Part shown: positions 11,474-55,691 of the stretch, one piece after another
How the letters are laid out: the number at the start of each line of letters is the position of its first letter
Position numbering within the stretch: position 1 is the first letter of the stretch
NCBI GenBank assembly: GCA_013141455.1
Contig: JABFQW010000021.1
Location: 62,001 to 126,000 of the forward strand
Direction: 5' to 3'
From: Bacteroidales bacterium
Lineage (GTDB): Bacteria; Bacteroidota; Bacteroidia; Bacteroidales; F082
Length of the DNA: 64,000 nt
Notes under the pieces: generated by a model
The model's input: the letters and a program-made list of their open reading frames with translations, nothing else
Told to the model about the DNA's origin: nothing
Databases searched by the model: none
Position numbers and translations under genes: made by a program

Positions 11474-12775
11474 ATGTCAGAACAAAACAAAAGACCCAAT
11501 TACGCATTGCCAATAACAATGATGTTTGCGCTATACTTTATGATAGCGTTTGTAACAAACCTGCAAACTCCATTTGCTAATGTTGTAAAAGAACAGTTTC
11601 AACTTGCCAACTGGCAATCGTTACTCGGTAATTTAGCCAACTTTATTGCTTATGCCGTGATGGGGATACCCGCAGGATTATTATTACAAAAACAAGGTTA
11701 TAAACGAACAGCGCTAACGGCTGTAGTTTTAGGTTTTGCCGGTGTTTCAATTACTTTATATGCAGGATATATCGGTAATTTTGCCGTATATCTTTCCGGT
11801 GCATTTATCTCAGGTTTTTCGATGTGTATGCTTAATACTGTCGTTAATCCTATGTTAAACAGTTTAGGTTCGAATGAGAAAAAGGGGAATCAATTAAATA
11901 TGTTTGGGGGTGTATTTAATTCGACCGGCGGAACGATTGCTCCGATTTTTGCCGGTATTTTGGTTGGCCAGATTGCAAATCCTCGCATTTCGGATGTCAG
12001 CCCTGCTTTATATGTTGCCATGTCCATTTTTGCATTAACTTTTATCGTGCTTTCATTTGTTCAACTCCCTGAACTTCATAAGATTAAAGAAGCCGTTAAA
12101 GTGAAAGACAGCCATAGCGCATTATCGTTCACGCATTTCAAATTAGGTATGATTGCAATATTTATTTACGTTGGTGTTGAAGTTGGTATTCAGGCCATCG
12201 CTTATCTTTACATGACATCAGCCACCAATCCCGCTTCAGGACCTGCCGGCATGGGCATGAACGCCGGTGTTGTTGGTACAATCGTTGGCACCTATTGGTT
12301 GTTAATGTTGGCTGGTCGTTTATTGGGTGGTGTTATTGCCGGTAAGGTATCGAGTAAAACCATGTTATCAACAGCCTCAGTTATCGGAGTCGTACTTGTT
12401 TTAATTGCCATGTTTGTTCCTACTACCATGATTAGCTTTCCGGCTTTCAATTCTCAATTATCGATAAGTTTACAACAGGTACCGCTTAATGTTGTATTTC
12501 TTATACTTTGTGGATTATGCACATCGGTCATGTGGTCGAGCATATTCAATTTAGCCACTTCCGGATTAGGAAAATATACAGCGATGGCTTCCGGCATATT
12601 TATGGTAATGGTTTGTGGGGGTGGTATTTTACCTGCATTACAAGGTTATGTGGCCGACAAAACCAGCTATATGGCCAGTTACTGGGTTATAATCATTGGT
12701 ATTGCCTATATGTTTTACTATGCTGTTGCAGGAAGTAAGAATGTAAACAAAGATATTAAGGTTGATGTTGGGTGA
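11474..12775 (+). CDS. Sugar:H+ symporter, FucP/GluP-type MFS transporter
   Basis: 433 residues with about 12 hydrophobic segments. The start FALYFMIAFVTNLQTPFANVVKEQF resembles the FHS (fucose/glucose/galactose) family: an early transmembrane helix and a 'P.l...f' turn. It also has GIPAGLLLQKQGYKRTAL (loop 2-3), NMFGGVFNSTGGTIAP and MWSSIFNLATSGLGKYTAMASG, which are typical of that family. Its place at the end of the gal operon suggests galactose or glucose/galactose uptake. A hairpin follows at 12792-12832. Confidence 0.85.
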   Translation: MSEQNKRPNYALPITMMFALYFMIAFVTNLQTPFANVVKEQFQLANWQSLLGNLANFIAYAVMGIPAGLLLQKQGYKRTALTAVVLGFAGVSITLYAGYIGNFAVYLSGAFISGFSMCMLNTVVNPMLNSLGSNEKKGNQLNMFGGVFNSTGGTIAPIFAGILVGQIANPRISDVSPALYVAMSIFALTFIVLSFVQLPELHKIKEAVKVKDSHSALSFTHFKLGMIAIFIYVGVEVGIQAIAYLYMTSATNPASGPAGMGMNAGVVGTIVGTYWLLMLAGRLLGGVIAGKVSSKTMLSTASVIGVVLVLIAMFVPTTMISFPAFNSQLSISLQQVPLNVVFLILCGLCTSVMWSSIFNLATSGLGKYTAMASGIFMVMVCGGGILPALQGYVADKTSYMASYWVIIIGIAYMFYYAVAGSKNVNKDIKVDVG

Positions 12776-13394: not shown

Positions 13395-13504
13395 CTTTAT
13401 AAAAACCTGGCACATCAAATGACAGGAAGAAAGGCTACCAATAAAATCGCGTATAATATTGAGGATTTGTCGGTTATCCAAGTGAATCGCTTCGTTCAAA
13501 TTTC

Positions 13505-15862: not shown

Positions 15863-15880
15863 ATGTGTTTTTTTGAGCAT

Positions 15881-16025
15881 AGGCTGTTCTTTTTATCTTT
15901 TTTACTCACTGCAAAATTACCGCTGTCGTTTCTTTCATAGTCTCGTTGGTATCTGTCTGGTAGCATCATCTCATTCAAACCTGAAATGCTCATCGAAATG
16001 TTATCAGCAATGTTAACGTTTATAT
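15881..16025 (+). repeat. 145-bp direct repeat, left copy (flanks abiE)
   Basis: Near-identical to 18068-18214. Shared words include 'gcaaaattaccgctgtcg', 'tagcatcatctcattcaa', 'tgctcatcgaaatgttat' and 'cagcaatgttaacgttta'. It lies immediately before a REP-like half element (16028-16044, 'cctgctggcgcggatttt'). Confidence 0.8.
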
Positions 16026-16101
16026 GCACCTGCTGGCGCGGATTTTAAAGCGGTATTGGTTTTATTGTCGGCGTAATGTACTGTTGAACGTCCCATAAAT
16101 C

Positions 16102-17169
16102 CTACTTTGTTTCTAATTCGTAGATTTTATACCAATAAAAGAAGGCTTCCGGATTGGACTTTTTCAAACGGTTTAGTTTTGTATTCATTGGTTCGGCAAT
16201 AAGCCAGTCTTTCATTTGTAATTGGTTACTATATTTTTCAATAGTTTTGTAATCATGTTTTATTAGAGTTGCCACATAAGCAGCTTTTGAAGCATGGGTG
16301 ATTGCCTTTTCTATATGATAGCTTTCGGTGAAAATAAATCTTGAAACACGCTGAATGCCTTGTTGTAGTTGATCAAAATCGCCTTTCCCATCAGCACCCC
16401 TGGTTACGATGCATAAAGAGGTTTGATAAATATCTTCCAAAACGTCTTTGGCAGAAAGGTTATTCATTTCCTTATACTCAAGTTCTGTTTTTGCAAACTT
16501 TTTAAATGTAGTTTTAATATTTTCTATGTCGGTCACATTATCAAACAGATTGCCAATATCATATAACTGTTTAATGATTTCCATACTCATGCTATCCTTA
16601 CCCTTAAAATATGGAATCCCAGCAGTATTTGGGGCAAAAGCCGTTAATTTATCGCCTGTAATATCTTCTAAACATGCAGACTTAACGGTTAATGGAGATT
16701 CTTTTTCAGGTAAAAATGAAGACTGTATTTTGAGTTCAACCAAATTCTTGTATTGTACTTCTACAAAAAGGATATCAAGCAATACATATTCTTCGACATT
16801 GCTTGTTTTATGTAAAGGAGTATAATAATATTTGAAGTGAGTTTTATCAATTTTCGAATTTGTATTTCGCTGCTGAAATTCTTTTCTAAGAAAGCCTTGT
16901 TCTGAAGCTACTCCATCAAGTAATTCTTCCAATTTTTCAGGTTTTCCAGGCATTATAATATCAATGTCTATCGATAACCTTTTTGATGAATTCAAATGCA
17001 ACATTAATGCTGTACCGCCCTTAAAAACAAAAGAGAGTTTTTGTTTCACTAATCCTTCTAATAGCAAAAGGGCACGAATAACCTTTTCAACCAATATTTT
17101 ATCGGCATTTCGATTCTCTTTAGAAACCTTAGTTATCCAGTCTAACGTAATTTTATCAATATCAATCAT
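16102..17169 (-). CDS. abiEii: AbiEii/AbiGii-type nucleotidyltransferase toxin
   Basis: 355 residues. Motif I is FVFKGGTALMLHLNSSKR followed by LSIDIDIIM (GG-T/S ... D-x-D), the DNA polymerase beta-type nucleotidyltransferase core of AbiEii toxins; SACLEDITGDKLTAFAPNTAGI carries the family's later K-x-x-A block. Proteins of this family are type IV toxin-antitoxin toxins that give phage abortive infection, some by blocking tRNA 3' ends. It is preceded by the AbiEi-like antitoxin with a 21-base gap. A palindromic box (17182-17204) lies 13 bases upstream of the ATG, overlapping the antitoxin's stop. Confidence 0.85.
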   Translation of the reverse strand: MIDIDKITLDWITKVSKENRNADKILVEKVIRALLLLEGLVKQKLSFVFKGGTALMLHLNSSKRLSIDIDIIMPGKPEKLEELLDGVASEQGFLRKEFQQRNTNSKIDKTHFKYYYTPLHKTSNVEEYVLLDILFVEVQYKNLVELKIQSSFLPEKESPLTVKSACLEDITGDKLTAFAPNTAGIPYFKGKDSMSMEIIKQLYDIGNLFDNVTDIENIKTTFKKFAKTELEYKEMNNLSAKDVLEDIYQTSLCIVTRGADGKGDFDQLQQGIQRVSRFIFTESYHIEKAITHASKAAYVATLIKHDYKTIEKYSNQLQMKDWLIAEPMNTKLNRLKKSNPEAFFYWYKIYELETK

Positions 17170-17181
17170 ATTCTATAAATT

Positions 17182-17204
17182 GGCAGCATATCAACTTTGC
17201 TGCC
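17182..17204. promoter_or_regulatory. Palindromic box 1, before abiEii
   Basis: Perfect 7-bp inverted repeat GGCAGCA-N9-TGCTGCC. On the minus strand it is followed by AATTTATAG, as in box 2 at 17983-18005. It spans the abiEi stop codon and ends 13 bases before the abiEii ATG. Confidence 0.75.
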
Positions 17205-17943
17205 GTAAATTAGAAATTGAACTTAAGTATTCACGAAAGCTTTCTTTTTTTCTTCGTCTATTGGCATATCGAGTCATACGACTCTCATTTACAGTGTATT
17301 TTTTTAATGCTTCCTGAAAAATAGTTCTCATTTCAGAACCTTGTTGAGCAGCAAATATTACAGCATCACAAAAAATATCAACTAACATTTTTTCAATTGT
17401 GGGCGAGTTGATTCTGTTTATTGTTTGTAATGGAGCTTCTGAAACCAGAGACTTTACGATAAAAGTTTCTTTTTCATCAGGTAAGTATTTTTCAAATAAA
17501 TCCTTTGTAGGCTCAATAAACACAGAAAATTTATGCTCTTTTAAATAAAAAAAAACCGATTGTGCAGCTTCTTTTTCCACCTCAATAAGTATGTAGAATC
17601 GCCCCGGCTGATGAATCATAAATTCATTTAAAGAAGAGGTATTCCAAATGCATATTCTCAAATATGGAAATTCTTTTTTTAGCTTTGAGTAAACTGATTT
17701 TATTTTAGAAGATATTTCCGGTACATAAACCCTGTTTTTACCAATTGCAAATCTACCTCTTCCAATCCTATTCAAAACGCCAGATTGCACCAAATTATAA
17801 ACTCTCCAATTTATTGTAGTTGTTTTTACTTCCGGTTCCCTTTGTAAATAAAACTTTACAATATCAGATGTTTCAAAGCTTTCTTTGTCTTTGAAAAAAT
17901 CTTTAAGTTGTTCAATATTTAATTTATCTGTTGCGATAGTTAT
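17191..17943 (-). CDS. abiEi: AbiEi-like antitoxin/autoregulator; no standard start codon at its apparent 5' end
   Basis: The frame is open and plainly coding from about 17943 (T-I-A-T-D-K-L-N-I-E-Q-L-K-D-F-F...) through a winged-helix segment (T-S-D-I-V-K-F-Y-L ... T-I-N-W-R-V-Y-N-L-V-Q-S-G-V-L) and R-I-G-R-G-R-F-A-I, to 17191: 250 codons. No ATG, GTG or TTG occurs in the first 50 codons. The first codon after the upstream stop region that could serve is ATA at 17943-17941; TTG-GTG at 17793 would delete the winged helix. Either a rare start is used or the start has mutated. The antitoxin binds its own promoter in characterised systems. It is followed by the toxin gene. Confidence 0.75.
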   Translation of the reverse strand: MTIATDKLNIEQLKDFFKDKESFETSDIVKFYLQREPEVKTTTINWRVYNLVQSGVLNRIGRGRFAIGKNRVYVPEISSKIKSVYSKLKKEFPYLRICIWNTSSLNEFMIHQPGRFYILIEVEKEAAQSVFFYLKEHKFSVFIEPTKDLFEKYLPDEKETFIVKSLVSEAPLQTINRINSPTIEKMLVDIFCDAVIFAAQQGSEMRTIFQEALKKYTVNESRMTRYANRRRKKESFREYLSSISNLRQQS

Positions 17944-17957
17944 AAAAGATTAGAATA

Positions 17958-17965
17958 CAAATATA
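17958..17965 (-). promoter_or_regulatory. -7 element (TATATTTG) for the abiE operon
   Basis: Minus-strand TATATTTG fits TAnnTTTG. TTTG within the right arm of palindromic box 2 lies 22 bases upstream as a possible -33. Transcription would begin only about 10 bases before the coding frame. Confidence 0.55.
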
Positions 17966-17982
17966 ATAAAAAACTATAAATT

Positions 17983-18005
17983 GGCAGCAAAATAAATATG
18001 CTGCC
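17983..18005. promoter_or_regulatory. Palindromic box 2, abiE promoter
   Basis: GGCAGCA-N9-TGCTGCC followed by AATTTATAG on the minus strand: the same arms, spacer length and flank as box 1. It overlaps the presumed -33 element of abiEi, consistent with an autorepressor site. Confidence 0.75.
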
Positions 18006-18067
18006 GAAATATAGCATCGGTGTGTAAGCAAAATTGCAGCTCTTTTGTAAGCTTTGATTTTGAACGT

Positions 18068-18214
18068 TGGCTGTCCATTTTATCTTTTATTTTCTCATTG
18101 CAAAATTACCGCTGTCGTTTCTTTCTTAGTTTTGTTGGTAACTGCCTGATAGCATCATCTCATTCAAACGGTAAATGCTCATCGAAATGTTATCAGCAAT
18201 GTTAACGTTTATAT
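18068..18214 (+). repeat. 145-bp direct repeat, right copy (flanks abiE)
   Basis: Same orientation as 15881-16025, with about 15 scattered differences by eye. The pair encloses the abiE genes and one REP-like half element. The xyl control region begins a few bases after this copy. Confidence 0.8.
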
Positions 18215-42444: not shown

Positions 42445-43485
42445 ATGGAGAAAGAAATATTATTCGGCAAAACACCTGACGAACTGAAAGAGGTAAGTCT
42501 GAAATTAGGTTTACCAAATTTTACCGCCAAACAAATCAGCGAATGGCTTTATAAAAACAATGCCCGTTCGTTCGAACAAATGACGAATTTATCGAAGAAG
42601 GCACGCCTACTTCTCGAAGAGCAATATGAAGTGGGTGTGACCGATTTCAGCAAGGTTCAGGCTTCGACCGATGGTACAAAAAAATACCTTTTTCCGACGC
42701 AGAATAATCGTTTTATTGAGTCAGCCTATATACCGGATGCACATAGGGCTACCTTGTGTGTTTCGTCGCAGGTGGGTTGTAAGATGGGTTGTTTGTTTTG
42801 CATGACCGGGAAACAAGGATTTCAGGCACAACTTTCGGCAGGTGAAATTATTAACCAGATCATGAGCTTGCCCGAAAGGGAGAGTTTGACCAATATCGTG
42901 TATATGGGCATGGGCGAGCCATTCGACAATCTTGAACATGTCATGCGAAGTCTTGAGATCATGACTTCGGAATGGGGATTGGGGATGAGTCCGCGACGCA
43001 TCACCGTTTCAACGATCGGTGTGATTCCGGCCATGAAACATTTCCTCGAAAATTCGGATTGCAATTTAGCCGTGAGCATGCACACGCCGTTTCATGAAGA
43101 ACGCCGTAAACTCATGCCGATTGAGAATGTTTATCCGATTGCTGAGGTAATTAAGACGTTGCGAAGTTTCGACTTTGGCAAACAGCGCCGTATTTCGTTC
43201 GAATACATCATGTTTGCCGGTATCAACGACACACCCGAACATGTAAAAGAGCTGGCGCGCCTGCTCAATGGTATGCGTTGCCGCATCAACCTGATTCGTT
43301 TTCATCCTATTCCATCCACACCACTGCGTAGCTCGAACGATGCCACCATCGAAGATTTCAGACTGGCCTTGCTCGACAAAGGCATACGCACCACCGTTCG
43401 TGCTTCGCGTGGCCTCGATATTTTTGCCGCCTGCGGACTGCTGTCAACCAAGGAATTGGTGAATATGCAATCACCTGATTTCTAA
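42445..43485 (+). CDS. rlmN: Dual-specificity rRNA/tRNA adenine C2 methyltransferase RlmN
   Basis: 346 residues from the ATG at 42445; a TTG ten codons earlier is less likely. Radical SAM enzyme methylating A2503 of 23S rRNA and A37 of some tRNAs. CKMGCLFCMTGKQG is the cluster motif (C-x3-C-x2-C), YMGMGEPFDNLE and RRITVSTIGVIP follow, SDCNLAVSMHTPFHEERRKLMPI is typical, and FAACGLLSTKE near the end holds the methyl-carrier Cys. The last codons read NMQSPDF, unlike the KQQALDF of the two displaced 3'-end copies downstream at 45631-45837 and 51170-51253. Confidence 0.97.
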   Translation: MEKEILFGKTPDELKEVSLKLGLPNFTAKQISEWLYKNNARSFEQMTNLSKKARLLLEEQYEVGVTDFSKVQASTDGTKKYLFPTQNNRFIESAYIPDAHRATLCVSSQVGCKMGCLFCMTGKQGFQAQLSAGEIINQIMSLPERESLTNIVYMGMGEPFDNLEHVMRSLEIMTSEWGLGMSPRRITVSTIGVIPAMKHFLENSDCNLAVSMHTPFHEERRKLMPIENVYPIAEVIKTLRSFDFGKQRRISFEYIMFAGINDTPEHVKELARLLNGMRCRINLIRFHPIPSTPLRSSNDATIEDFRLALLDKGIRTTVRASRGLDIFAACGLLSTKELVNMQSPDF

Positions 43486-43538: not shown

Positions 43539-45335
43539 TTACAAATGGTATAATCTGGTAATATAGTTTCCTTTTGGATGTTTCAATTTCAGAATGTATG
43601 TTCCACTTTTTAAAGTGGAAACATCTATTTTTGAATTGTTCTTTATTTTTTCACTGAACAATAGTACACCCTGAATAGAATAAATTTCTATATAGATATT
43701 TTCATCAGATTCCAAGGAGCTACTAATGGACACCATTGAGCTGGCTGGATTTGGTGAAACACTAAATGAAAAAATGTCATTATTAAGTTCTGTTACATTT
43801 GTTGGCTCTAACCTGATGAGAATGGTATCGGTGTTTGAGCAACCATAATAATCCGTTACCAAAACAGATATTTGAATGGAATCAGCTGTAATGGAGCTGT
43901 CGTTTGTAAAAACTAAACTAGGATGAGTCCAAGCGTCTATATTCCACAAATATTGTGAGTAGCCATATCCTGGAGTAAGCAATATTGATTCACCCTTAGC
44001 CAAAATAGTATCGTTGCCCAGGTAAAAATGAGGCAACGGATTAATAGAAACGAATACCGTATCAATATATTGATTGCTATATCGATCGGTTACCTGTAAC
44101 ACATATTGTCCTGAGTCGGTTACAGTAATGGATGGTTCTACACTACCATTCGACCATAAATAGGTCTGGTAATCAGCAAATGGAAAGAGTTTAATAGAGT
44201 CTCCGGCACAAAATGATTGATGGTCACTGAAAAATACGTTTGATCTATAAATATATATAGAATCCTCAAATACAGGATTGGAATATAAATAATAATTCTC
44301 CTGATCGTAAATTTTTCTTCCACCCATATTATTGTCAAAATCAGATCGGCTGAAGAAGGTGTTAATCAATTTCATATGACCTGAAATGGTATCAATTTCA
44401 AAAAATGCAATCTCTCCTTCTGAGCTGACTAAAAAAGCCTTGTGATTAGGCGATAGAGTCATTGAATTTGGATTTCTTAAGTTTGGATAACCAAATTCAT
44501 GTGTTTGGATGATTGAAAGAGAATCGGTCAAAGGATCAACAACCAACACTACTGCCGCTCCCGATCCCATCGAATTGGTAATTGTGTATAGGAATCGGTT
44601 ATCGAAACTTACCATGGATTCCTGGGCAAAGGTTAAAGACTGATTTTGGTAGTTTGAACCCCGGATTTCCTGCATAAATGTTAAAAGTCCGGTAACAGGA
44701 TCTCTATAAAAAGAGGAAATGCCATGCCCTCCTGTGGCATAAATGAAATGATTATCAGGACTTAAAGCACAAGAAACCTCATTAGAAAACCCTTCAACAT
44801 GATTCAAATCGGAATACTCTTCAATCAATTCGAGCTGTCCTGTGATGGTATCACGGCTATATAAAAAAATATCATCCCTGACCGAATTATACATAAACTG
44901 GCCATCCCGGCTTAAAACCAAACAATTATTAGTGTTATTGATGTTTGAGGGACTTTCCCATTTTTGATAGGTCAGGGTAGGAGTTAACAATCCCGTAGCT
45001 ACATTCACCTCAAAAACACCAATATATTCTCTAAACCCAAGATATAAGAAACCGGAATCGGCACTGATTGCCATGGAATAAGCCCAATAAATATCTGTCC
45101 CGTCATTTGTTTGTTCAATGGTCGAAATAAGCGTTAGATCACCAGTTGATACATTTCTTTCATATACTTGAAAATGATTATCGGTTGCCTCATAACAAAA
45201 TCTGTTATCAGGACTGATGATCATGTTATAAGGATATTTCAAATCTGAGTTAATGCTTTTGTAATAACTCATCTGAGCAAATCCTAACTGAAATATTCCA
45301 ATAAAGATTATGAGGATTATGTTGTTTTTTTTCAT
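43539..45335 (-). CDS. Secreted lactonase-like beta-propeller protein with T9SS sorting domain
   Basis: 598 residues. Signal peptide to about residue 20 (IIFIGIFQLGFAQ). Residues 30-375 form a seven-blade-type propeller with blades like M-I-S-P-D-N-R-F-C-Y, A-L-S-P-D-N-H-F-I-Y-A-T-G and M-T-L-S-P-N-H-K-A-F, resembling 6-phosphogluconolactonase-like (YVTN/lactonase) repeats. Residues 380-500 look like PKD/SprB-type modules (D-S-I-K-L-F-P-F, Y-L-W-S-N-G-S). The C-terminal sorting domain is FSVSPNPASSMVSISS to the end. It is inverted relative to rlmN, 53 bases after it, and lies between two copies of the rlmN 3' end. Composition is A+T-richer than rlmN. Confidence 0.85.
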   Translation of the reverse strand: MKKNNIILIIFIGIFQLGFAQMSYYKSINSDLKYPYNMIISPDNRFCYEATDNHFQVYERNVSTGDLTLISTIEQTNDGTDIYWAYSMAISADSGFLYLGFREYIGVFEVNVATGLLTPTLTYQKWESPSNINNTNNCLVLSRDGQFMYNSVRDDIFLYSRDTITGQLELIEEYSDLNHVEGFSNEVSCALSPDNHFIYATGGHGISSFYRDPVTGLLTFMQEIRGSNYQNQSLTFAQESMVSFDNRFLYTITNSMGSGAAVVLVVDPLTDSLSIIQTHEFGYPNLRNPNSMTLSPNHKAFLVSSEGEIAFFEIDTISGHMKLINTFFSRSDFDNNMGGRKIYDQENYYLYSNPVFEDSIYIYRSNVFFSDHQSFCAGDSIKLFPFADYQTYLWSNGSVEPSITVTDSGQYVLQVTDRYSNQYIDTVFVSINPLPHFYLGNDTILAKGESILLTPGYGYSQYLWNIDAWTHPSLVFTNDSSITADSIQISVLVTDYYGCSNTDTILIRLEPTNVTELNNDIFSFSVSPNPASSMVSISSSLESDENIYIEIYSIQGVLLFSEKIKNNSKIDVSTLKSGTYILKLKHPKGNYITRLYHL

Positions 45336-45600: not shown

Positions 45601-45630
45601 ATGAGGCGTTTCGTTGCTTGGCATCAGCGC

Positions 45631-45837
45631 TCCCGTATCAACCTGATTCGTTTTCATCCAATTCCATCCACACCACTGCGTAGCTCGAACGATGCCACCA
45701 TCGAAGATTTCAGACTGGCTTTGCTCGACAAAGGCATACGCACCACCGTTCGTGCTTCGCGCGGTCTCGATATTTTTGCCGCCTGTGGACTCCTATCAAC
45801 CAAAGAATTAGTGAAACAACAGGCATTGGATTTTTGA
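45631..45837 (+). pseudogene. rlmN: Displaced rlmN 3' end, copy 2
   Basis: 68 codons aligned with rlmN from RINLIRFHPIPSTPLRSS to the stop, including the FAACGLLSTKE methyl-carrier segment. Relative to intact rlmN I count ten nucleotide differences before the last six codons, all synonymous (for example cct/cca, ggc/ggt, tgc/tgt, ctg/cta). The tail reads KQQALDF instead of NMQSPDF. An ATG at 45601 opens the frame ten codons earlier, but that part is unrelated to rlmN. Homology starts abruptly at the CGT/CGC Arg codon. Confidence 0.9.
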
Positions 45838-46204
45838 GCGGAGGATTTGTCGGGGACAGGATTTTTAATTCCCCTTTTGGTGTATTTTGGAGTCGCCCAA
45901 AAATAACGGGATCTGAATTATGAACGATGAAGTTGCAAACACCGAACGGAGCGCTTCTCCCGAATGCTATCAGGAGGGTTGCCGATACTCGGGACAAGCT
46001 GGGCCGACCACATAACTAAATCCAAAGCCAGCATGCCCATGCTTTGCCCGGGAACTGATACATTTTTATGAAGCCAAAACCATTCCCAATAAATCGCTGA
46101 TTAAGAAGATACTATTTGAATTCTGATGTAAAGTTGATGGTGTTGCCATCAATAACAATGATTTTTAAAGTACCTTTAGTGCCTGTTCTAAATTAGCAGA
46201 AGAG
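45838..46204. other. Spacer after rlmN tail copy 2
   Basis: 367 bases without a supportable gene. TACCTTTA near 46170 may be the -7 element of the TPR-HTH gene. Confidence 0.45.
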
Positions 46205-47584
46205 GTGTATATAAGGATATTATTAATTTACTTTTTTAGTTTTCTGGTTATTACGGGAAGTTATGCAAATGAAGAGCCTGAATCCCTCAAGATTAGGGTT
46301 ACGAAAAACGGTGTGCTTTTTCGTGAAAACCTTGATCTGGCTTATCTTGATATACAACCACTCCTTTTGGAGGCTCTGCAGGCAAAGGATAGTCTATCAG
46401 AACTCATACTTTTTGAAAGGAAGTGCAGGTATTTTTATACAAAAAGCCAATATGACAGCTTGAATGAAACCTCCGTTTTCCTTTTGGAACAGGCAACCCG
46501 CTACAAGAACAATTATTTTCAAGCGATGGGCCATATGTTTCAGGCGGAGGGATTTTCTGTGAATAGTTTGTATGACCGTGCCATAGGAAGTCTGACACAA
46601 GCTTATAATATTCTGAGTAAGGACAAGAGCGGAGATGCGATTATTTTTTTCGCGAAAGCTAATGTGTTGAACAGTTTTGCAAATGTTTATAATGATAATG
46701 GTGAACCGGAAAAGGCAGTTGAAAAGATTAAAGAAGTGATTGGGAGCTATAATTCTTTAAAAAACAAAGAGGATATCAATCGTTTCCAATACTTGAATTA
46801 CAGTAATCTCTCAGGTGTATATACGATGTTTGATATGGATTCGGCAGAGTATTATGCCAAAAAGTCAATAGAAATTAAACCTTCAGATGTGGTAGAAGAC
46901 AAGGCGATGATGATGAATTATTATGCGTTGGGCAAAGCGTTTAAATCGAGAAATGATTATTCCAGCGCAGCAAGTTACTATCACAAAGCAATAGCGGCAG
47001 GTGTTAAAAGTGGTACTTCGCTAAATCTGACTGAAATTTACAACAGTCTCATAGATATTTACGAGAAAGAAGGGAATAAAGACAGTGTGTTGTTGTATGT
47101 GAATAAACTCAAAGAAATGGAGTTGAACATCCTTCAGAGTAAATACAATTCACTCCAAAAGACTGTCATCAGTGGGGAGAAAAAAACATCACCTGTGTGG
47201 ATTATCTTTCTGGTAGCAATGATGAGTTTAATCATCTTTTATCTTTGGAGAAAACTCGCACGGAAAAAGCTTGTTGCTGAGTCTGTTTCAAATGAAGCAT
47301 ACAATTCTTTGATCCAATTATTAAAAGACAACGATACTGGCTTTTACTTTGCTTTTGAGCAGGTTTTCCCTGACTTTTCAGAAAAACTGCTTGTAATAAA
47401 CCCGGTTTTAGCAAAAACTGAAATTGAGTTTTGTTTCCTGCTAAAGCTTAAACTTACAACAAAAGAAATAGCTCAACTTACGTTTCTTGAGCCACGGACG
47501 GTCCAAAACAAGAAACATAGGATAAGAAAACGTTTAGATATTCCTTCCTCAGCCGATATTTATGTCTGGCTGGATTCCATATAG
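46205..47584 (+). CDS. TPR-containing membrane regulator with LuxR-like C-terminal HTH
   Basis: 459 residues from a GTG start; no ATG fits. An N-terminal signal (IRILLIYFFSFLVITGSYA) is followed by a TPR-like helical domain in the periplasm (about residues 40-310; A-S-Y-Y-H-K-A-I-A-A-G and Y-N-S-L-I-D-I-Y-E-K-E-G repeats), one transmembrane helix (about 325-345, PVWIIFLVAMMSLIIFYLW), and a C-terminal DNA-binding segment (TTKEIAQLTFLEPRTVQNKK, HRIRKRL). The layout is a one-component sensor common in Bacteroidetes. It precedes the Big2 secreted protein by 161 bases on the same strand and may control it. Confidence 0.8.
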   Translation: MYIRILLIYFFSFLVITGSYANEEPESLKIRVTKNGVLFRENLDLAYLDIQPLLLEALQAKDSLSELILFERKCRYFYTKSQYDSLNETSVFLLEQATRYKNNYFQAMGHMFQAEGFSVNSLYDRAIGSLTQAYNILSKDKSGDAIIFFAKANVLNSFANVYNDNGEPEKAVEKIKEVIGSYNSLKNKEDINRFQYLNYSNLSGVYTMFDMDSAEYYAKKSIEIKPSDVVEDKAMMMNYYALGKAFKSRNDYSSAASYYHKAIAAGVKSGTSLNLTEIYNSLIDIYEKEGNKDSVLLYVNKLKEMELNILQSKYNSLQKTVISGEKKTSPVWIIFLVAMMSLIIFYLWRKLARKKLVAESVSNEAYNSLIQLLKDNDTGFYFAFEQVFPDFSEKLLVINPVLAKTEIEFCFLLKLKLTTKEIAQLTFLEPRTVQNKKHRIRKRLDIPSSADIYVWLDSI

Positions 47585-47745: not shown

Positions 47746-50700
47746 ATGAAAAGAAGAATTACAATCGTATTTTTGGCATGTTTGCTTGCATTTCTGAACA
47801 TAAATCTGCATGCACAAGTGTGGGAACCTGTTGGAAATCCCGATGGAATTTCATTGGGGGGTGTCGGCCGCTTAACACTTGTAAACGATTTTGAGGATAA
47901 TTTAGTAGTTGGGTATTATGATGCAAGTGTGGAAAAAGCCTCCGTACAGAAATATGATGGAACGAACTGGTCATATCTTGGTCAAGCCGGAATGACGCCC
48001 AGTTATGCGACTTATAATTCATTGGCCGTAGATAATGTGGGAATCCCTTACTTCACAAATCAGGCAGCTTATCCGGAAGCTGGCTTAGAAGTTAGAAAAT
48101 TTGAAAATGGTGTCTGGGTGGACTTGCCTAATGCGGCTGATCAGATTATTAATTTTCAATCTTCTGCATTTTCTGCAGATAACACTCTCTTTGTAGTAAC
48201 AGGGGAGAACTCAGGCACTGTTAAAAAGTTTGTAAATGGGACCTGGGAACAAGTAGGCACTTCCAACTTTTTGAATGATACTCCATTCTATTTGGATATG
48301 GCAATTGCAAATAATGGCAAAATATACATTAGCTTCAATAACAATGGATTTGTTCATGTTTTTGAAAACAATGTAAACGCATCTATAACTGATGAATGGC
48401 TCCCTGTTGGCGGCATCACTGATATTGCTCCGGCCCCCGCTACTGAGAATTATAACTCTTCTCTGGCTGTAGATGGCAATAGCAATCTTTTTCTTGCTTA
48501 TGCCTCCTCTTATAACCAAGGTCAAAAATTAAATGTTAAAAAATTCGACGGTACTGAATGGAGTCAGTTAGGCAATGCACAATTTTCGCCAAACGCTGTT
48601 CAGTATGTTAGTATCGCAATTGGGGCAAATAACATTGTTTATGTTGTGGCCAGTAACTGGGCAGAAGAGGATTTTGGCAGAAACTATGTCATGTTTTATA
48701 ATGATGCCACCGATTTGTGGGAGCAGGCAGGTACAGGTTGGGCTTCAATGGGAGAGGCTAGTTTTAATTCTTTGGAGGTTAATAGTAATGGCAATCTTTT
48801 CCTGGCATTTTCGGATTCTTATATAGATAAATTGTCTGTGAAAATGTTAAATCTGGATATAGTTGCTGCCGAAAGTGTTGAAATAAGCACCGAAGGAGGA
48901 GTGCCGGCTGAAATTACAGAGGATAATGGAACACTACAGTTAATAGCTACCGTATTACCCGAAAATGCAAGCCAAAGTGTAGTTTGGAATATTGAGTCAG
49001 GAGAAACTTTTGCTACTGTTGATGAAAATGGCCTAGTAACAGCTACTACATCAAATGCTGTTGTTACTATAAGAGCTTTTTCTACGCAAAACGAATCGAT
49101 ATTCGACACTTTTGATGTTACTATTACCAATCAAAACAGTGATATTGAAGCGCAAGAAATTGTATTAACGACTGAAAACAATGTGTTTTCTGATATTTTA
49201 TCGATAGGAGGTACTTTACAATTGATCTCAACTATTACTCCGGCTGAAGCCGACCAATATGTAATATGGACAGTTGAAGAAGGGTCTGACATCGTTAGCG
49301 TAAACTCCGAAGGATTAGTTACCTCTCTTTCTGAAGGATATGCCATCATTAGGGCTACATGCACAGAAAATGCAACCCTATATGATGAAATGAGAATTAA
49401 TGTTTGGGAAAGCGGTTGTTCTCAGGGCAATGAATCCATGGTTTTTGGAGACGGTTATACAATTAGTAATGGTTTTAAGGTAGCTGATGACTTCATTGTT
49501 GAAGAGGGGATGAGATTCTCTGTAGGGACCATTAGAATGAATATTCTGATTGATCCAGATGTTGATATTACCTCTGTTGACCTTCATTTTTTGAAGAATG
49601 ATGTGGATCGTCCGGGTGAGGAAATAACGGTCATCTATAACATTACACCAACTTATCAGAGATTTATAGCAGACTTCGATTTTGTACAACAGTATGAAAT
49701 AGAGCTGGATTTAGATGAGACGATCATGTTTGAACAGGGAACTTATTGGTTATCGCCTGTTGCGACATCATCAAATGGAAGTGATGTGTATTGGGACGCG
49801 ACTGTTTATGGAAATATTGGCTATGGCTTTTATTCTGATAGTGACGACGGTCATGGATGGAGAGGTAATGGTGGAATGGATGCTGTATTTGAAATTACCG
49901 GAAACTGCACTCAGATGCCGGTGGTTGTTAATACTGCCAACGGAGAGGATACCGAAATCTATGTTGAAGAGGAATTACAGCTTGAAGCGCAGGTAAATGA
50001 ACCAGATGTTTCTCAAGATGTAATCTGGTCAGTAGAATCCGGATCTCAATTTGCTACGGTTGATGAAAACGGATTGGTTATTGGAATAGCTGTGGGTGTT
50101 GTTGTGGTGAGGGCTACCTCTGTTGATGACAATTCACTTTTTGGTGAAATAGAAATAAGTGTAATTGATCCCAATACTTGTGGAGTCTCAGTTCCGTCGA
50201 ATAATTTGGAAAATGGGTATCTGTTTGGTAGCATTCGTTTGGCGGTGGATATTATTGTTGAAGAAGGTTATACTTTTACTATTACCTCAGTTGAACCTAC
50301 GGTTATAGACTTGGCAACGGAGTTTACATTTTTGTTTTACAAGGATGAAGACGGGTTTCCGGGAGATACTGTGACAGCAACAACAACAGGTACCATAACA
50401 CATAACACAACAACAGGCATGAATTTTCTTTATTATTTCCATCGCTATCATATTGAACTGGATACACCTGTTATTCTGGAGGAAGGAATTTATTGGATGG
50501 AGATAGTAACAAATGCTATTGGATGGGAATCAACATCTGTAAGTGTTATTGGCCATCCGGGAGTATTTAACAATCCTGATACCGGAGGAGAATGGCAATA
50601 TTCTTCAAATGGATCGGAATATGTTTATAATGTAAATGGACTCTGTGAATTAGTGACTTCTATTCCGAACAACAGCCTTTCTGAAGATAATGATATCATG

Positions 50701-50922
50701 GTTTTTCCAAACCCTTCTGATGATCATATTACCCTTAAAATCAATAATATCCACGAAAGATCAATAGAAGTTAATATTTTCGATTCCTTAGGTCGAATAG
50801 TAATGAACAGCAACTTTAATCAGGAAACAGATCTCGATATCAGTAGCTTACCTAGTGGTATTTATTATATTAAAATCTTTAGTGAAGAGATAAATGAAAT
50901 ACGAAAAATAATAGTGAATTAA
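47746..50922 (+). CDS. Secreted propeller/Big2 protein with T9SS sorting domain
   Basis: 1058 residues. Signal peptide to about residue 23 (ACLLAFLNINLHAQ). Residues 25-370 have blade-like repeats of the form K-Y-D-G-T-N-W-S-Y-L-G and K-F-D-G-T-E-W-S-Q-L-G. Three bacterial Ig-like group 2 domains follow (about 375-455, 465-550 and 722-800), each with 'GTLQLIATV.PE', 'VVWNIESG..FATVDENGLV' and 'V.IRA.S' strands. Between and after them are two jelly-roll-like modules (D-V-D-R-P-G-E-E; D-G-F-P-G-D-T-V). The C-terminal domain, IMVFPNPSDDHITLKI to the end, is T9SS type A. It lies between two displaced rlmN 3' ends. Confidence 0.87.
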   Translation: MKRRITIVFLACLLAFLNINLHAQVWEPVGNPDGISLGGVGRLTLVNDFEDNLVVGYYDASVEKASVQKYDGTNWSYLGQAGMTPSYATYNSLAVDNVGIPYFTNQAAYPEAGLEVRKFENGVWVDLPNAADQIINFQSSAFSADNTLFVVTGENSGTVKKFVNGTWEQVGTSNFLNDTPFYLDMAIANNGKIYISFNNNGFVHVFENNVNASITDEWLPVGGITDIAPAPATENYNSSLAVDGNSNLFLAYASSYNQGQKLNVKKFDGTEWSQLGNAQFSPNAVQYVSIAIGANNIVYVVASNWAEEDFGRNYVMFYNDATDLWEQAGTGWASMGEASFNSLEVNSNGNLFLAFSDSYIDKLSVKMLNLDIVAAESVEISTEGGVPAEITEDNGTLQLIATVLPENASQSVVWNIESGETFATVDENGLVTATTSNAVVTIRAFSTQNESIFDTFDVTITNQNSDIEAQEIVLTTENNVFSDILSIGGTLQLISTITPAEADQYVIWTVEEGSDIVSVNSEGLVTSLSEGYAIIRATCTENATLYDEMRINVWESGCSQGNESMVFGDGYTISNGFKVADDFIVEEGMRFSVGTIRMNILIDPDVDITSVDLHFLKNDVDRPGEEITVIYNITPTYQRFIADFDFVQQYEIELDLDETIMFEQGTYWLSPVATSSNGSDVYWDATVYGNIGYGFYSDSDDGHGWRGNGGMDAVFEITGNCTQMPVVVNTANGEDTEIYVEEELQLEAQVNEPDVSQDVIWSVESGSQFATVDENGLVIGIAVGVVVVRATSVDDNSLFGEIEISVIDPNTCGVSVPSNNLENGYLFGSIRLAVDIIVEEGYTFTITSVEPTVIDLATEFTFLFYKDEDGFPGDTVTATTTGTITHNTTTGMNFLYYFHRYHIELDTPVILEEGIYWMEIVTNAIGWESTSVSVIGHPGVFNNPDTGGEWQYSSNGSEYVYNVNGLCELVTSIPNNSLSEDNDIMVFPNPSDDHITLKINNIHERSIEVNIFDSLGRIVMNSNFNQETDLDISSLPSGIYYIKIFSEEINEIRKIIVN

Positions 50923-51130: not shown

Positions 51131-51169
51131 ATGTAAACAATTTCTGAGATTTCATTCTTGTGCATGGGT

Positions 51170-51253
51170 ACTTCGCGCGATGTCGATATTTTTACCGCTT
51201 GCGGATTGCTTTCAACCAAAGAATTGGTGAAACAACAGGCATTGGATTTTTAG
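51170..51253 (+). pseudogene. rlmN: Displaced rlmN 3' end, copy 3 (28 codons)
   Basis: In frame it reads TSRDVDIFTACGLLSTKELV and then KQQALDF, stop, against RlmN A-S-R-G-L-D-I-F-A-A-C-G. It has four amino acid changes in the first nine codons, so it has drifted more than copy 2. It shares the KQQALDF ending with copy 2, including the same bases 'gtgaaacaacaggcattgg'. It begins 40 bases after the terminator at 51101-51130. Confidence 0.88.
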
Positions 51254-51363: not shown

Positions 51364-51999
51364 TTGCGTTACATAATTGTTTTATACATTCTTTTTGGCA
51401 GTATCACTTTTGTTTCGGCCCAGGAAACGAAGTATATGCAGGGTCGTGTGTTCTCTGCCGACAGCCTGAAAGAATTAGCCGATGTTCACATTATCAGTAA
51501 ATTAGCCCTGCGTGGCACCATCAGCCTACCCGATGGTACCTTTTATATTAACTCGGCACCCAATGATTCATTGCTGTTCAGCATGCTTGGTTTTGAACGC
51601 AAAATCGTGCTCATCACCGAACAAATGTTGTTGAATGGCGAACGTATTTCGGTCTCGCTCGAAAGAGATACCATTTTGATGCAGGAAGTGGTGATCCGTT
51701 CCTTTTACGATTACCAGACATTTAAATATATGGTCGTTAACATGAAGCCACTGAAGCCTGTCAATCTGGAAACGATGGACAGCGAACTCAGGACAAGTCT
51801 TGAAGAGGTGCGTTCCTATCCGGCCTCGGCGGGTGGTCCCATTCAGGCTGCCTACGACTATTTCAACGATATGGCACGCCTGCAGCGGCGCATGGAGCAT
51901 AACCGCAGATTGTATAATGAACAATTGATTCTCGAGGGGAAAATAACCGACACCATCCCTGCCTTGCCGCAGCATCTGATCGAAAAATACAGGAAATAA
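51364..51999 (+). CDS. Secreted protein with carboxypeptidase-regulatory-like domain
   Basis: 211 residues from a TTG start, the only start that leaves a full signal peptide (IIVLYILFGSITFVSAQ). Residues 24-100 are a CarboxypepD_reg-like beta sandwich: M-Q-G-R-V-F-S-A-D-S-L, V-H-I-I-S-K, G-T-I-S-L-P-D-G-T-F-Y-I, S-L-L-F-S-M-L-G-F-E. The C-terminal half is helical and charged. Such proteins are common in Bacteroidetes envelopes; function unknown. It is probably the original neighbour of rlmN before the cassettes arrived. It is convergent with purL (8-base gap). Confidence 0.8.
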   Translation: MRYIIVLYILFGSITFVSAQETKYMQGRVFSADSLKELADVHIISKLALRGTISLPDGTFYINSAPNDSLLFSMLGFERKIVLITEQMLLNGERISVSLERDTILMQEVVIRSFYDYQTFKYMVVNMKPLKPVNLETMDSELRTSLEEVRSYPASAGGPIQAAYDYFNDMARLQRRMEHNRRLYNEQLILEGKITDTIPALPQHLIEKYRK

Positions 52000-52007
52000 G
52001 TTTCTGT

Positions 52008-55000
52008 TTACTTATGTGCGATCCAGTTACGGGCATTCACAAAAGCTTCAATCCACGGCGATACCTCATCATTTTTTCGGTCACCAGGGTAATGTGCCCA
52101 TTGCCAGGGTAAAATTGATCTTTCGGGATGTGGCATCATGGCCAGATGACGTCCGTCGTTTGAGCAGATTCCCGCAGTAGCCCAGTCGCTTCCGTTTGGA
52201 TTGGCCGGATATTGCTCATGAGCGAAAGTCATCACGATATTGTATTTGTCGCGATACATCGGGAAACTGAATTTTCCTTCACCATGCGCCACCCAAACGC
52301 CTAAGTGTTTACCGACCAGACTGCCAAGCATGATGCTTTTGTTATCTTCGATTTCAACACTCAGGAAAGCCGATTCAAACTTACCCGATTCGTTATGGTG
52401 CATCACCGGTTTCTCAGGATGATCGGGATAAATGAGACCAAGCTCCATCATCAACTGGCAACCGTTGCAAACACCCAGACTGAGCGTATCATGACGGGCA
52501 TAAAATGTATCAAGCGCTGACTTGGCTTTTTCATTATAAAGGAATGCACCGGCCCAGCCTTTGGCCGAACCCAATACGTCTGAATTCGAAAAACCACCAA
52601 CAAACACGATCATCTTCACATCCGAAAGGTCCTCACGGCCGCTGATCAAATCGGTCATATGAATGTCTTTCACATCAAAACCGGCCAGATAAAGGGCATA
52701 CGCCATCTCACGGTCGCCGTTTACACCTTTTTCGCGGATGATAGCCGCATTGATGCCGGTTCGTTCGCGTCGTTTGAAATCGATCCCATATTGCGATGCC
52801 TTTCCGGTGAAACTTTTACTGAAACTGAAACTCAGATCCTGATGTTTATAATTTTTATACCGTTCAAGTGCTTTCTTCTCACCACATTGTTTCTTGTCGA
52901 GCAGATACGACGATTTGAACCAGGTATCGCGCATGGTATCAATATCGATGCTGTATTTTTCGTTTTCGTGCAGTATAGTCAGGGTACGCGATTCGGCAGG
53001 TTTCGCGATTGATACGAAACTCACACCGGCATCAGAAAGTATTTTCCGGGCTTTTCCGTCAGTTTTTACCTGTATAATTACGGATGGTTTTTCGCTGAAA
53101 AGGATACTGAAGATGTCGTAGCGTTTGCACGAGGTGAGATCAACGATTAGGCCATGATCACAATTCGCGAATGTCATTTCGAGCAGACAGGTTATCATGC
53201 CACCGGCTGAAATATCATGTCCGGCCAACACCAATTCTTCCTGAATAAGGGTTTGTAAGGTGTTGAATGTGAGCGCGAAATAATCGGTGTCTTTCACATC
53301 AGGCGCTGTTTTTCCGATCTTATTCAATACCTGGGCAAAGCTGCTGCCACCCAACAGAAAATCGTCGCACGAGAAATCGAGATATAACAATTCGGTCTCC
53401 ATATCGGGTTTAAGAACCGGTGTAACTGCTTTCCGCAGATCGGTTGTTTCGCCGACAGCAGTAACGATAACGGTTCCGGGCGAAAGTACTTTTTTACCGT
53501 CCGGATATTTCTGGGTCATCGAGAGTGAATCTTTTCCGGTGGGAACGTTGATGCCGAGTTCGATACAGAAATCGCTTAATGCCCTGACGGCCTTGTATAA
53601 ACGGTTATTTTCGCCTTCGTTACGTGCAGGCCACATCCAGTTGGCACTCAGCGAGATACCTTTTATTCCATCATCAATAGGTGTCCAGACAATATTGGTG
53701 AGCGCCTCGGCAACCGACAACCTGGAGGCAATCCGTGAGTCGATCAATCCTGCTACCGGTGCATGACCAATGGCTGTTGCAATACCGTGCACACCCTGAT
53801 AGTCGATAGCGGTGATTCCGAGATTGTTTAACGGAAGCTGTATGGGCCCGGCACATTGCTGCATGGCAACACGGCCGGTAACTGAACGGTCAACCTTGTT
53901 GGTAAGCCAGTCTTTGCATGCCACCGATTCGAGTTGTAACACCTGACCGATGTAGTAAATGAGGTTATCCTTATCGTAACTCAGTTCCTCGAATTTATAT
54001 TTTTTATGCTCGTCTTCCAGTATGGTTTTGGGCGCTTTACCAAAGAAATGTTCTAATTTCAGATCGATTGGGTTGGTACCGCTGCTACGCACAAACCGTA
54101 ACTTCATTTCATCGGTCACTTTACCGACTTCATATATCGGGGCACGCTCACGTTCTGCTGTTCTGCGTAATAAGGCAAGATGGTCAGGGTGAATTACCAG
54201 GCCCATTCTTTCCTGTGATTCGTTGCCGATGATTTCCTTGTCGGATAGCGTTTGATCGCCGACAGGCAGTTTTGAAATATCGATTGTTCCGCCTGTTTTT
54301 TCAACTAATTCCGACAAACAGTTGAGATGTCCGCCTGCGCCGTGGTCATGAATAGAAACAATTGGGTTTGTTTGTGCTTCCGACATGGCTCTGATCACAT
54401 TGGCGACACGTTTTTGCATTTCGGGATTGGCACGTTGCACGGCGTTCAATTCAATGGCGTTGCTAAACTGACCGGTATCAACACTCGAAACAGCTCCCCC
54501 ACCCATCCCGATCCGGTAATTGTCGCCGCCAAGCAACACGATCAAATCATCTTTATGAGGGACTTCCTTATGGCTGTCTTCACGCCGGGCATAGCCAACA
54601 CCGCCCGCAAGCATGATCACCTTATCGAATCCAAAAGCAGGACCTTCGTCATGTTCAAAAGTAAGCAGACTGCCATTGATTAGAGGCTGACCAAATTTGT
54701 TTCCAAAATCGGAAGCTCCGTTCGATGCTTTGATAAGTATTTCGGCGGGCGAATGATAGAGCCAATCGCGCTCCGGATTATTTTGTTCCCAGCTCCGGTT
54801 ATTTTCGGTTCTCGGGTAGGAAGTCATATAAACTGCCGTTCCTGTGAGGGGGACGCTCCCTTTACCACCAGCCAGACGGTCACGTATCTCACCGCCGCTA
54901 CCTGTTGAAGCGCCATTGAAAGGTTCAACCGTGGTTGGGAAATTGTGTGTTTCAGCTTTTATCGAGATGATTGTATCAATATCGGTTACTGTAAAAAAAT

Positions 55001-55691
55001 CAGCTTTATCCTGATGAAGTGGTGCAAACTGTTCAGCCTGCGGTCCCGAAATGAAGGCAACATTGTCTTTGTATGCCGAAACGAGTTTGTTAGGATTTAA
55101 TTCAGATGTTTTTCGGATAAGTTGGAACAACGTTTCGGGCATGGGTTTGCCATCGATGATAAATGTACCGTTAAATATTTTATGGCGACAATGTTCCGAA
55201 TTAACCTGTGCGAATCCATACACCTCGCTATCAGTAAGTTTACGACCTATTTTCTGGCTGATATCTTCGAGGTAATCAATTTCGTCGGGGCTGAGCGCCA
55301 GACCTTCCTGTTTGTCGTATTGTTTGAGATCATCAATAAATCGAATCGCTTCAGGTTTGTGATCAATATCGAATAATTTTTGATCGAGATTGATATACAG
55401 GGATTTCAGCATTGGGTCGAAAATCTTGTCGTCGCTTGTTACTTTGCTGAATTCTTCCATACGGACGATGCCCGTTATGCCCATGTTTTGTGTTATTTCA
55501 ACGGCATTTGTGCTCCAGGGTGTGACCATCTCTTTGCGTGGCCCGATATAGTTTCCGGTTACAAGCGGTTCAGAAATCACATGAGCGTCTCCCAATAGCC
55601 AGTTAAGTTTTTGAAAAACTACAGGAGATTGTTGGATTTGTGATTGAACGGCTATAATTCGATTTTTGGAGGCTTGTATGAAGTATATCAT
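52008..55691 (-). CDS. purL: Phosphoribosylformylglycinamidine synthase, single-chain
   Basis: 1227 residues, the long form with fused PurS-like, PurL and glutaminase parts. Converts FGAR, glutamine and ATP to FGAM in purine synthesis. [14 protein letters not shown] and [27 protein letters not shown] are the N-terminal ATP and substrate motifs; [17 protein letters not shown] comes from the second half. The class I glutamine amidotransferase has [14 protein letters not shown] with the nucleophile Cys and [12 protein letters not shown] with His and Glu. Full length and intact. Confidence 0.97.

Follow-up and report, generated by a model that had tools for sequence, protein, structure and literature searches.

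In rhs and cdiA a new 3' end is inserted, the displaced C-terminal tip is left downstream and the swapped end alters function, unlike at the rlmN locus described here, where the function of the enzyme was presumably kept. In the icd gene of E. coli, which harbors prophage e14 or the lambdoid phage 21, the housekeeping gene is kept intact and its old 3' end is displaced, as in rlmN; in the case of e14 the incoming DNA supplies the alternative 3' end, and the old end of 163 bp is stranded at the far side (PMC6379469). e14 is, however, a prophage that encodes an integrase and crosses over at a fixed point, whereas neither feature was found at the rlmN locus; there, each insert consists of one or two cargo genes, and the length of the stranded end differs between cases. 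In a laboratory system, a plasmid circle with the lacZ 3' end integrated by a single crossover and the recipient remained Lac+; a sub-class of the integrants, obtained with circles missing part of the lacZ end, had sequenced duplications of 109-950 bp (PMC3240628). Such Campbell-type integration leaves the gene intact, with a second copy of the 3' end, lacking the 5' part, beyond the insert, which is also the layout at rlmN, but the rlmN case is natural and repeated, with diverged (congeneric) ends. Tandem accretion of CIMEs (PMC5704250) likewise produces several att-like gene ends which separate recombinase-less inserts; in contrast to CIMEs, no related ICE or IME, integrase or defined att core was found at rlmN.

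The rlmN locus fits the recombination-driven hotspots next to core genes (PMC5635113), with which it shares the turnover of cargo without recognizable mobile elements, whereas at rlmN stranded gene ends still mark the joins. Insertions by homologous recombination are usually unmarked, which makes integrase-less hotspots hard to explain; stranded ends of conserved genes date and order the insertions, locate the crossover and can be searched for systematically. rlmN provides a concrete, recurrent example in Bacteroidales, its stranded tails being a readable record. Events of this kind (ordinary horizontal gene acquisition) are known, and rlmN offers a clear, recurrent instance; in a literature search of incomplete coverage, rlmN was not found described as an insertion site of this type in Bacteroidota.

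The window (the whole stretch of 64,000 nucleotides that was analyzed) belongs to a 4.39-Mb assembly (95% complete) and contains the end of rlmN in three copies. The gene itself (42445-43485, plus strand, 346 aa, Pfam Radical_SAM and RlmN_N) is intact; its body is of the type of the genus, whereas the last ~7 codons (about 43463-43485, VNMQSPDF*) are of the type of another genus. Copy 1 (43276-43485, plus strand, delimited by alignment to copy 2) is the current functional end. It is separated from copy 2 by a single minus-strand gene (43539-45335), the cargo of insertion 2, encoding a 598-aa secreted beta-propeller protein with a T9SS C-terminal sorting domain (Pfam Lactonase, Por_Secre_tail). 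Copy 2 (45627-45837, plus strand) is an rlmN 3' end without the 5' part, stranded by insertion 2; its tail KQQALDF* is genus-type, and it is followed by a 17-bp flank, GCGGAGGATTTGTCGGG (45838-45854, plus strand). Two genes, the cargo of insertion 1, lie between copies 2 and 3, both on the plus strand: one for a 459-aa protein (46205-47584) with weak TPR matches below the cut-off and a C-terminus which, by eye, we take to be LuxR-like, and one for a 1058-aa Big_2 domain protein with a T9SS sorting domain (47746-50922, Pfam). Copy 3 (51168-51253, plus strand), the oldest stranded end, comprises the last 86 bp of rlmN, is decayed (88% identity to copy 2, 84% to copy 1) and precedes a CarboxypepD_reg-like gene (51364-51999, plus strand, 211 aa), identified by Pfam and by its position in the sister species G015 as the original downstream neighbor of rlmN. 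The conserved right flank is purL (52008-55691, minus strand), named from its translation and from synteny with G015 and a second sister species, G014. The gaps between the copies (2.1 and 5.3 kb) are filled by AT-rich genes, with a G+C content of 35% (beta-propeller), 36% (459-aa gene) and 38% (Big_2 gene), compared to 46% for rlmN, the CarboxypepD_reg-like neighbor and purL.

The order of the insertions can be read from the sister species of the same genus. The site is empty in G015, where rlmN (ending in KQQALDF*) is followed by a CarboxypepD_reg-like gene (210 aa) and purL, i.e., by the genes located behind copy 3 in the window. In G014 a decayed rlmN tail of 43 bp, orthologous to copy 3, precedes the same CarboxypepD_reg-like neighbor, while the intact rlmN is located on a different contig from this stranded tail and has other cargo downstream; it ends in KQQALDF* and continues with GCGGAGGATTTGTCGGG, the same 17 bp as after copy 2. 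The empty site in G015 and the remnant in G014 imply that the first displacement was common to G014 and that insertion 1 stranded copy 3, which is the original end of rlmN. The working rlmN of G014 shares the tail and the 17-bp flank of copy 2, which marks the latter as a former working end, stranded later by the insertion of the propeller gene; the newest end is the one now on rlmN (copy 1). Foreign genes have been inserted directly behind rlmN at least twice, each time giving the gene a new tail, and the tandem rlmN ends bound the inserts with the newest beside the intact gene (copies 1-3, compared with G015 and G014). The earlier note, made from the letters of the window, had implied a single import event; the import itself is supported, but the number of nested events is at least two, the third copy at 51168-51253 having been overlooked.

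The insert behind the rlmN of G014 (L123, G014:C113) encodes several T9SS-sorted proteins unlike the cargo in the window, which indicates a turnover of the inserted genes from species to species. A contig (L131, G016:C93) of G016, the fourth genome of the genus, stops at 12637, at the start of the old downstream neighbor of rlmN, and no rlmN end was found, as if an unresolved repeat were located at the break.

Regarding copies 1 and 2, the ungapped homology covers 210 bp (43276-43485 and 45628-45837). Over 60 codons (43282-43461) there are 10 differences, all of them at third positions and all synonymous, which reproduces the count of ten synonymous-only differences over about 60 codons in the earlier note, a pattern far beyond chance. 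Two further changes lie at the upstream edge, a synonymous one at 43276 and a nonsynonymous one (Cys to Ser) at 43279/45631. The block of changed codons reported at the extreme C-terminus is real and starts at 43462 (N/K, M/Q, S/A and P/L in copy 1/copy 2), with TAA and TGA, respectively, as stop codons. NG86 estimates over 62 codons were 0.24 for dS and 0.008 for dN (omega 0.03), and the neutral chance of at least 11 synonymous changes among 12 was 4e-6 to 3e-5, depending on kappa. This dN/dS check, which the earlier note had proposed, indicates that the divergence of the segments was not that between a working gene and a fragment in decay. The predominance of synonymous differences implies that both segments spent most of the time since their separation inside working rlmN genes, which rules out a duplicate decayed in place; as both bodies are congeneric, the synonymous differences alone cannot tell which copy came from outside.

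At the genus level, the proposal that one end came from another lineage held for the last ~7 codons of copy 1, which look foreign; the 60-codon bodies are both congeneric. Within the last 27 nt, copy 1 differs at 3 positions from L093, a member of another genus of the same family, at 7 from G014 and at 9 from G015 (identities of 24/27 nt to L093 and 20/27 to G014), whereas copy 2 has 4 mismatches to each congener. At the sites diagnostic for G014 versus L093, the body of copy 1 is G014-like (53:3) and its tail is not (2:6; Fisher 2.9e-5), with the switch in affinity between 43456 and 43465, so that the tail is the part of the gene affiliating with another lineage; the identical test on 19 other ends gave 2.3e-3 at best. 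Copy 2 is G014-like throughout at these sites (body 50:3), and because of this a one-step import from the genus of the copy 1 tail was rejected. An imported end at rlmN is supported, with only the extreme tail of copy 1 apparently foreign at the genus level.

The body of copy 1 shows 94% identity to both G014 and copy 2. In a tree of the 60 codons, which does not single out the imported copy, copy 1 was placed beside G014 with weak support, and a clade of copies 1 and 2 was not rejected (AU p 0.355). Third-position differences to G014 were fewer in the copy 1 body than in the rest of rlmN (Fisher p 0.015 for the preset boundary 43276), and a free breakpoint scan of third positions against G014 peaked at 43279 (permutation p 0.13). 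A conflict between the 5' and 3' parts of rlmN, as expected in the earlier note, is suggested by these values and no more than hinted at. The observation that was to speak against import, a recent within-genome pair, did not emerge, copy 1 being equally near to G014 (path 0.062) and to copy 2 (0.061).

Among the rlmN genes located in fetched loci with enough downstream sequence (75 in total), four are accompanied by a stranded copy of the 3' end, compared with 2 of 892 other ORFs, both weak cases (p 4e-4); the four include the locus in the window and two representatives (L035 and L037) of one shared event. In the isolate Draconibacterium sediminis (L043), rlmN precedes an Omp85 gene, behind which an rlmN end is stranded, whereas D. 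orientale (L033) has no stranded end at the corresponding site and thus provides an empty site with the same flanks, as G015 does for the window. In Maribellus, a gene 66% identical to this Omp85 cargo is found 2.7 kb downstream of rlmN, as would be expected of donor DNA that is a stretch of chromosome including rlmN and a neighbor; regarding a donor-type arrangement for L043, this is suggestive. Misassembly is an unlikely source of the copies, given that an orthologous remnant is present in G014, which was assembled independently, and that the D. sediminis sequence comes from an isolate. L035 and L037 (Prolixibacteraceae group) have a stranded rlmN end and a 389-aa cargo gene in common. This gene (2696-3865 in L035, 11032-12201 in L037; no Pfam match) is 99.5% identical between the two species, the rlmN genes of which show 92% identity, suggesting a recent transfer of the cargo.

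A further stranded end (156 bp, 97%) occurs in G044 on a separate contig (L132, G044:C50), where it adjoins what we take, by eye, to be the C-terminal end of an IS110-family transposase. A scan of 393 genomes of the order for extra rlmN ends yielded no clear case beyond those known and G044, and stranded rlmN ends are accordingly uncommon in the order. Two matches were obtained in 20 genomes, most of them due to a second rlmN-like gene; the match in G218 appears to reflect a contig break and that in G017 a disrupted gene, and both were rejected as stranded ends.

The reading we put forward, with about an even chance of being right, is that genes were acquired horizontally at the 3' end of rlmN at least twice, by integration of the single-crossover type, and that the locus preserves these events in nested order. 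The incoming DNA would have carried one or two AT-rich cargo genes together with a piece of rlmN reaching to its 3' terminus. Recombination with the resident gene by a single crossover, or by another one-sided homologous exchange of equivalent effect, inside the conserved end of rlmN would leave rlmN whole with the tail of the donor, the cargo behind it and the old, 5'-less 3' end stranded beyond the cargo, and repeated events at the newest end would produce the nested order. The newest event accordingly lies beside rlmN and copy 3, the oldest stranded end, beside the original neighbor. The congeneric body of copy 2 together with the foreign tail of copy 1 would call for a last donor with a mixed (mosaic) end or for one additional exchange. 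We infer RecA-type homology within rlmN, with no recombinase, as the anchor, and a congener already carrying the foreign-type tail as the last donor; the route by which the DNA entered the cell would likewise be a matter of inference. A strict single crossover predicts a site near 43457-43464; the hint from the breakpoint scan is for 43279, and the data favor neither decisively.

The same layout would arise by homology-facilitated illegitimate recombination, i.e., from a linear donor which was homologous at rlmN and was joined non-homologously at its far side inside the old rlmN end, provided that this joint does not lie upstream of the crossover. The process is known from natural transformation (PMC3240628), and the scan peak at 43279 coincides with the start of the repeat; deletions of about 1 kb are usual in that process (PMC3240628), however, whereas the flanking gene is intact here, and every joint would have to lie in the final 210 bp of rlmN, so that we regard this account as possible but rather improbable. 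Site-specific integration is doubtful to a slightly greater degree. It would make the rlmN 3' end an attachment site for tyrosine-recombinase elements which later lost the enzyme (CIME-like accretion), and it can draw on the architecture and order of events, which equal a tandem accretion, on the established nature of CIME accretion (PMC5704250), on the 163-bp icd end left stranded by e14 in E. coli (PMC6379469) and on a Streptomyces AICE which integrates in rlmN (PMC9513070). Against this, a search directed at tyrosine recombinases found no such ORF or remnant of an integrase in any insert, in the window or in about 100 rlmN loci, and the four clear integrase genes of the genome are all on contigs other than that of rlmN. 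The stranded ends start 43 to 210 bp from the stop codon, with 5' limits which differ between cases, share no motif by eye and define no constant att core or crossover point; the inserts carry only one or two cargo genes. As neither a recombinase nor a constant att core was found, the locus cannot be classed among the known integrative elements; it works like a gene-end-swapping integration.

Tandem duplication in place, or slippage, of the rlmN end followed by decay of copy 2 would agree with both bodies being genus-type and 94% identical to each other. It is nevertheless highly improbable: 11 of the 12 body differences are synonymous (P about 1e-5), and a dN/dS of 0.03 is at odds with the neutral pattern expected in a non-functional copy. 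The copies are, moreover, 2.1 and 5.3 kb apart with AT-rich genes in between, copy 1 has a foreign tail and is as near to G014 as to copy 2, and the site is empty in G015. The preference of the earlier note for import over slippage or tandem duplication is thus borne out by the synonymous pattern, the copy 1 tail and the empty site. Just as little credence is given to copy 2 being a translated small protein maintained by selection. The corresponding 78-aa ORF (from 45601) is intact with an ATG and its changes are synonymous-only, but it lacks the catalytic core, selection before stranding accounts for the pattern, and the decay of copy 3 and of the remnant in G014 implies that stranded ends are not kept.

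A wider version of the single-crossover reading, which we consider speculative and improbable, is that the rlmN 3' end serves as a standing acquisition site in Bacteroidales, small recombinase-less cassettes (an rlmN end plus one or two genes for surface or secreted proteins) moving between species by rlmN recombination alone, with the housekeeping gene as the mobility module. Among 173 genomes of the family and 393 of the order, no full-length relative of the beta-propeller protein was found, nor a donor genome with the cargo of the window next to rlmN. Viral collections searched for mobile rlmN ends contained no viral relative. Plasmid and phage matches to a 76-aa query cover at least 71% of it at less than 60% identity; those with an annotation are rlmN-type methyltransferase genes, and the matches were rejected as mobile rlmN ends.

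Just past the stop codon of copy 2, at 45841-45853, lies GAGGATTTGTCGG, an insert-edge motif absent from the other rlmN ends outside the genus, with one further occurrence in the window (13461-13473; 0.07 expected at up to one mismatch). Two pairs of intergenic direct repeats of 140-160 bp, 13812-13953/15664-15806 (92%) and 15871-16025/18058-18214 (88%), flank two adjoining minus-strand cassettes. The former pair contains GGCGCGGATTTGCAATCCG-like palindromes, and the cassette bracketed by the latter (15871-18214 region) resembles, by eye, an AbiEi/AbiEii pair.
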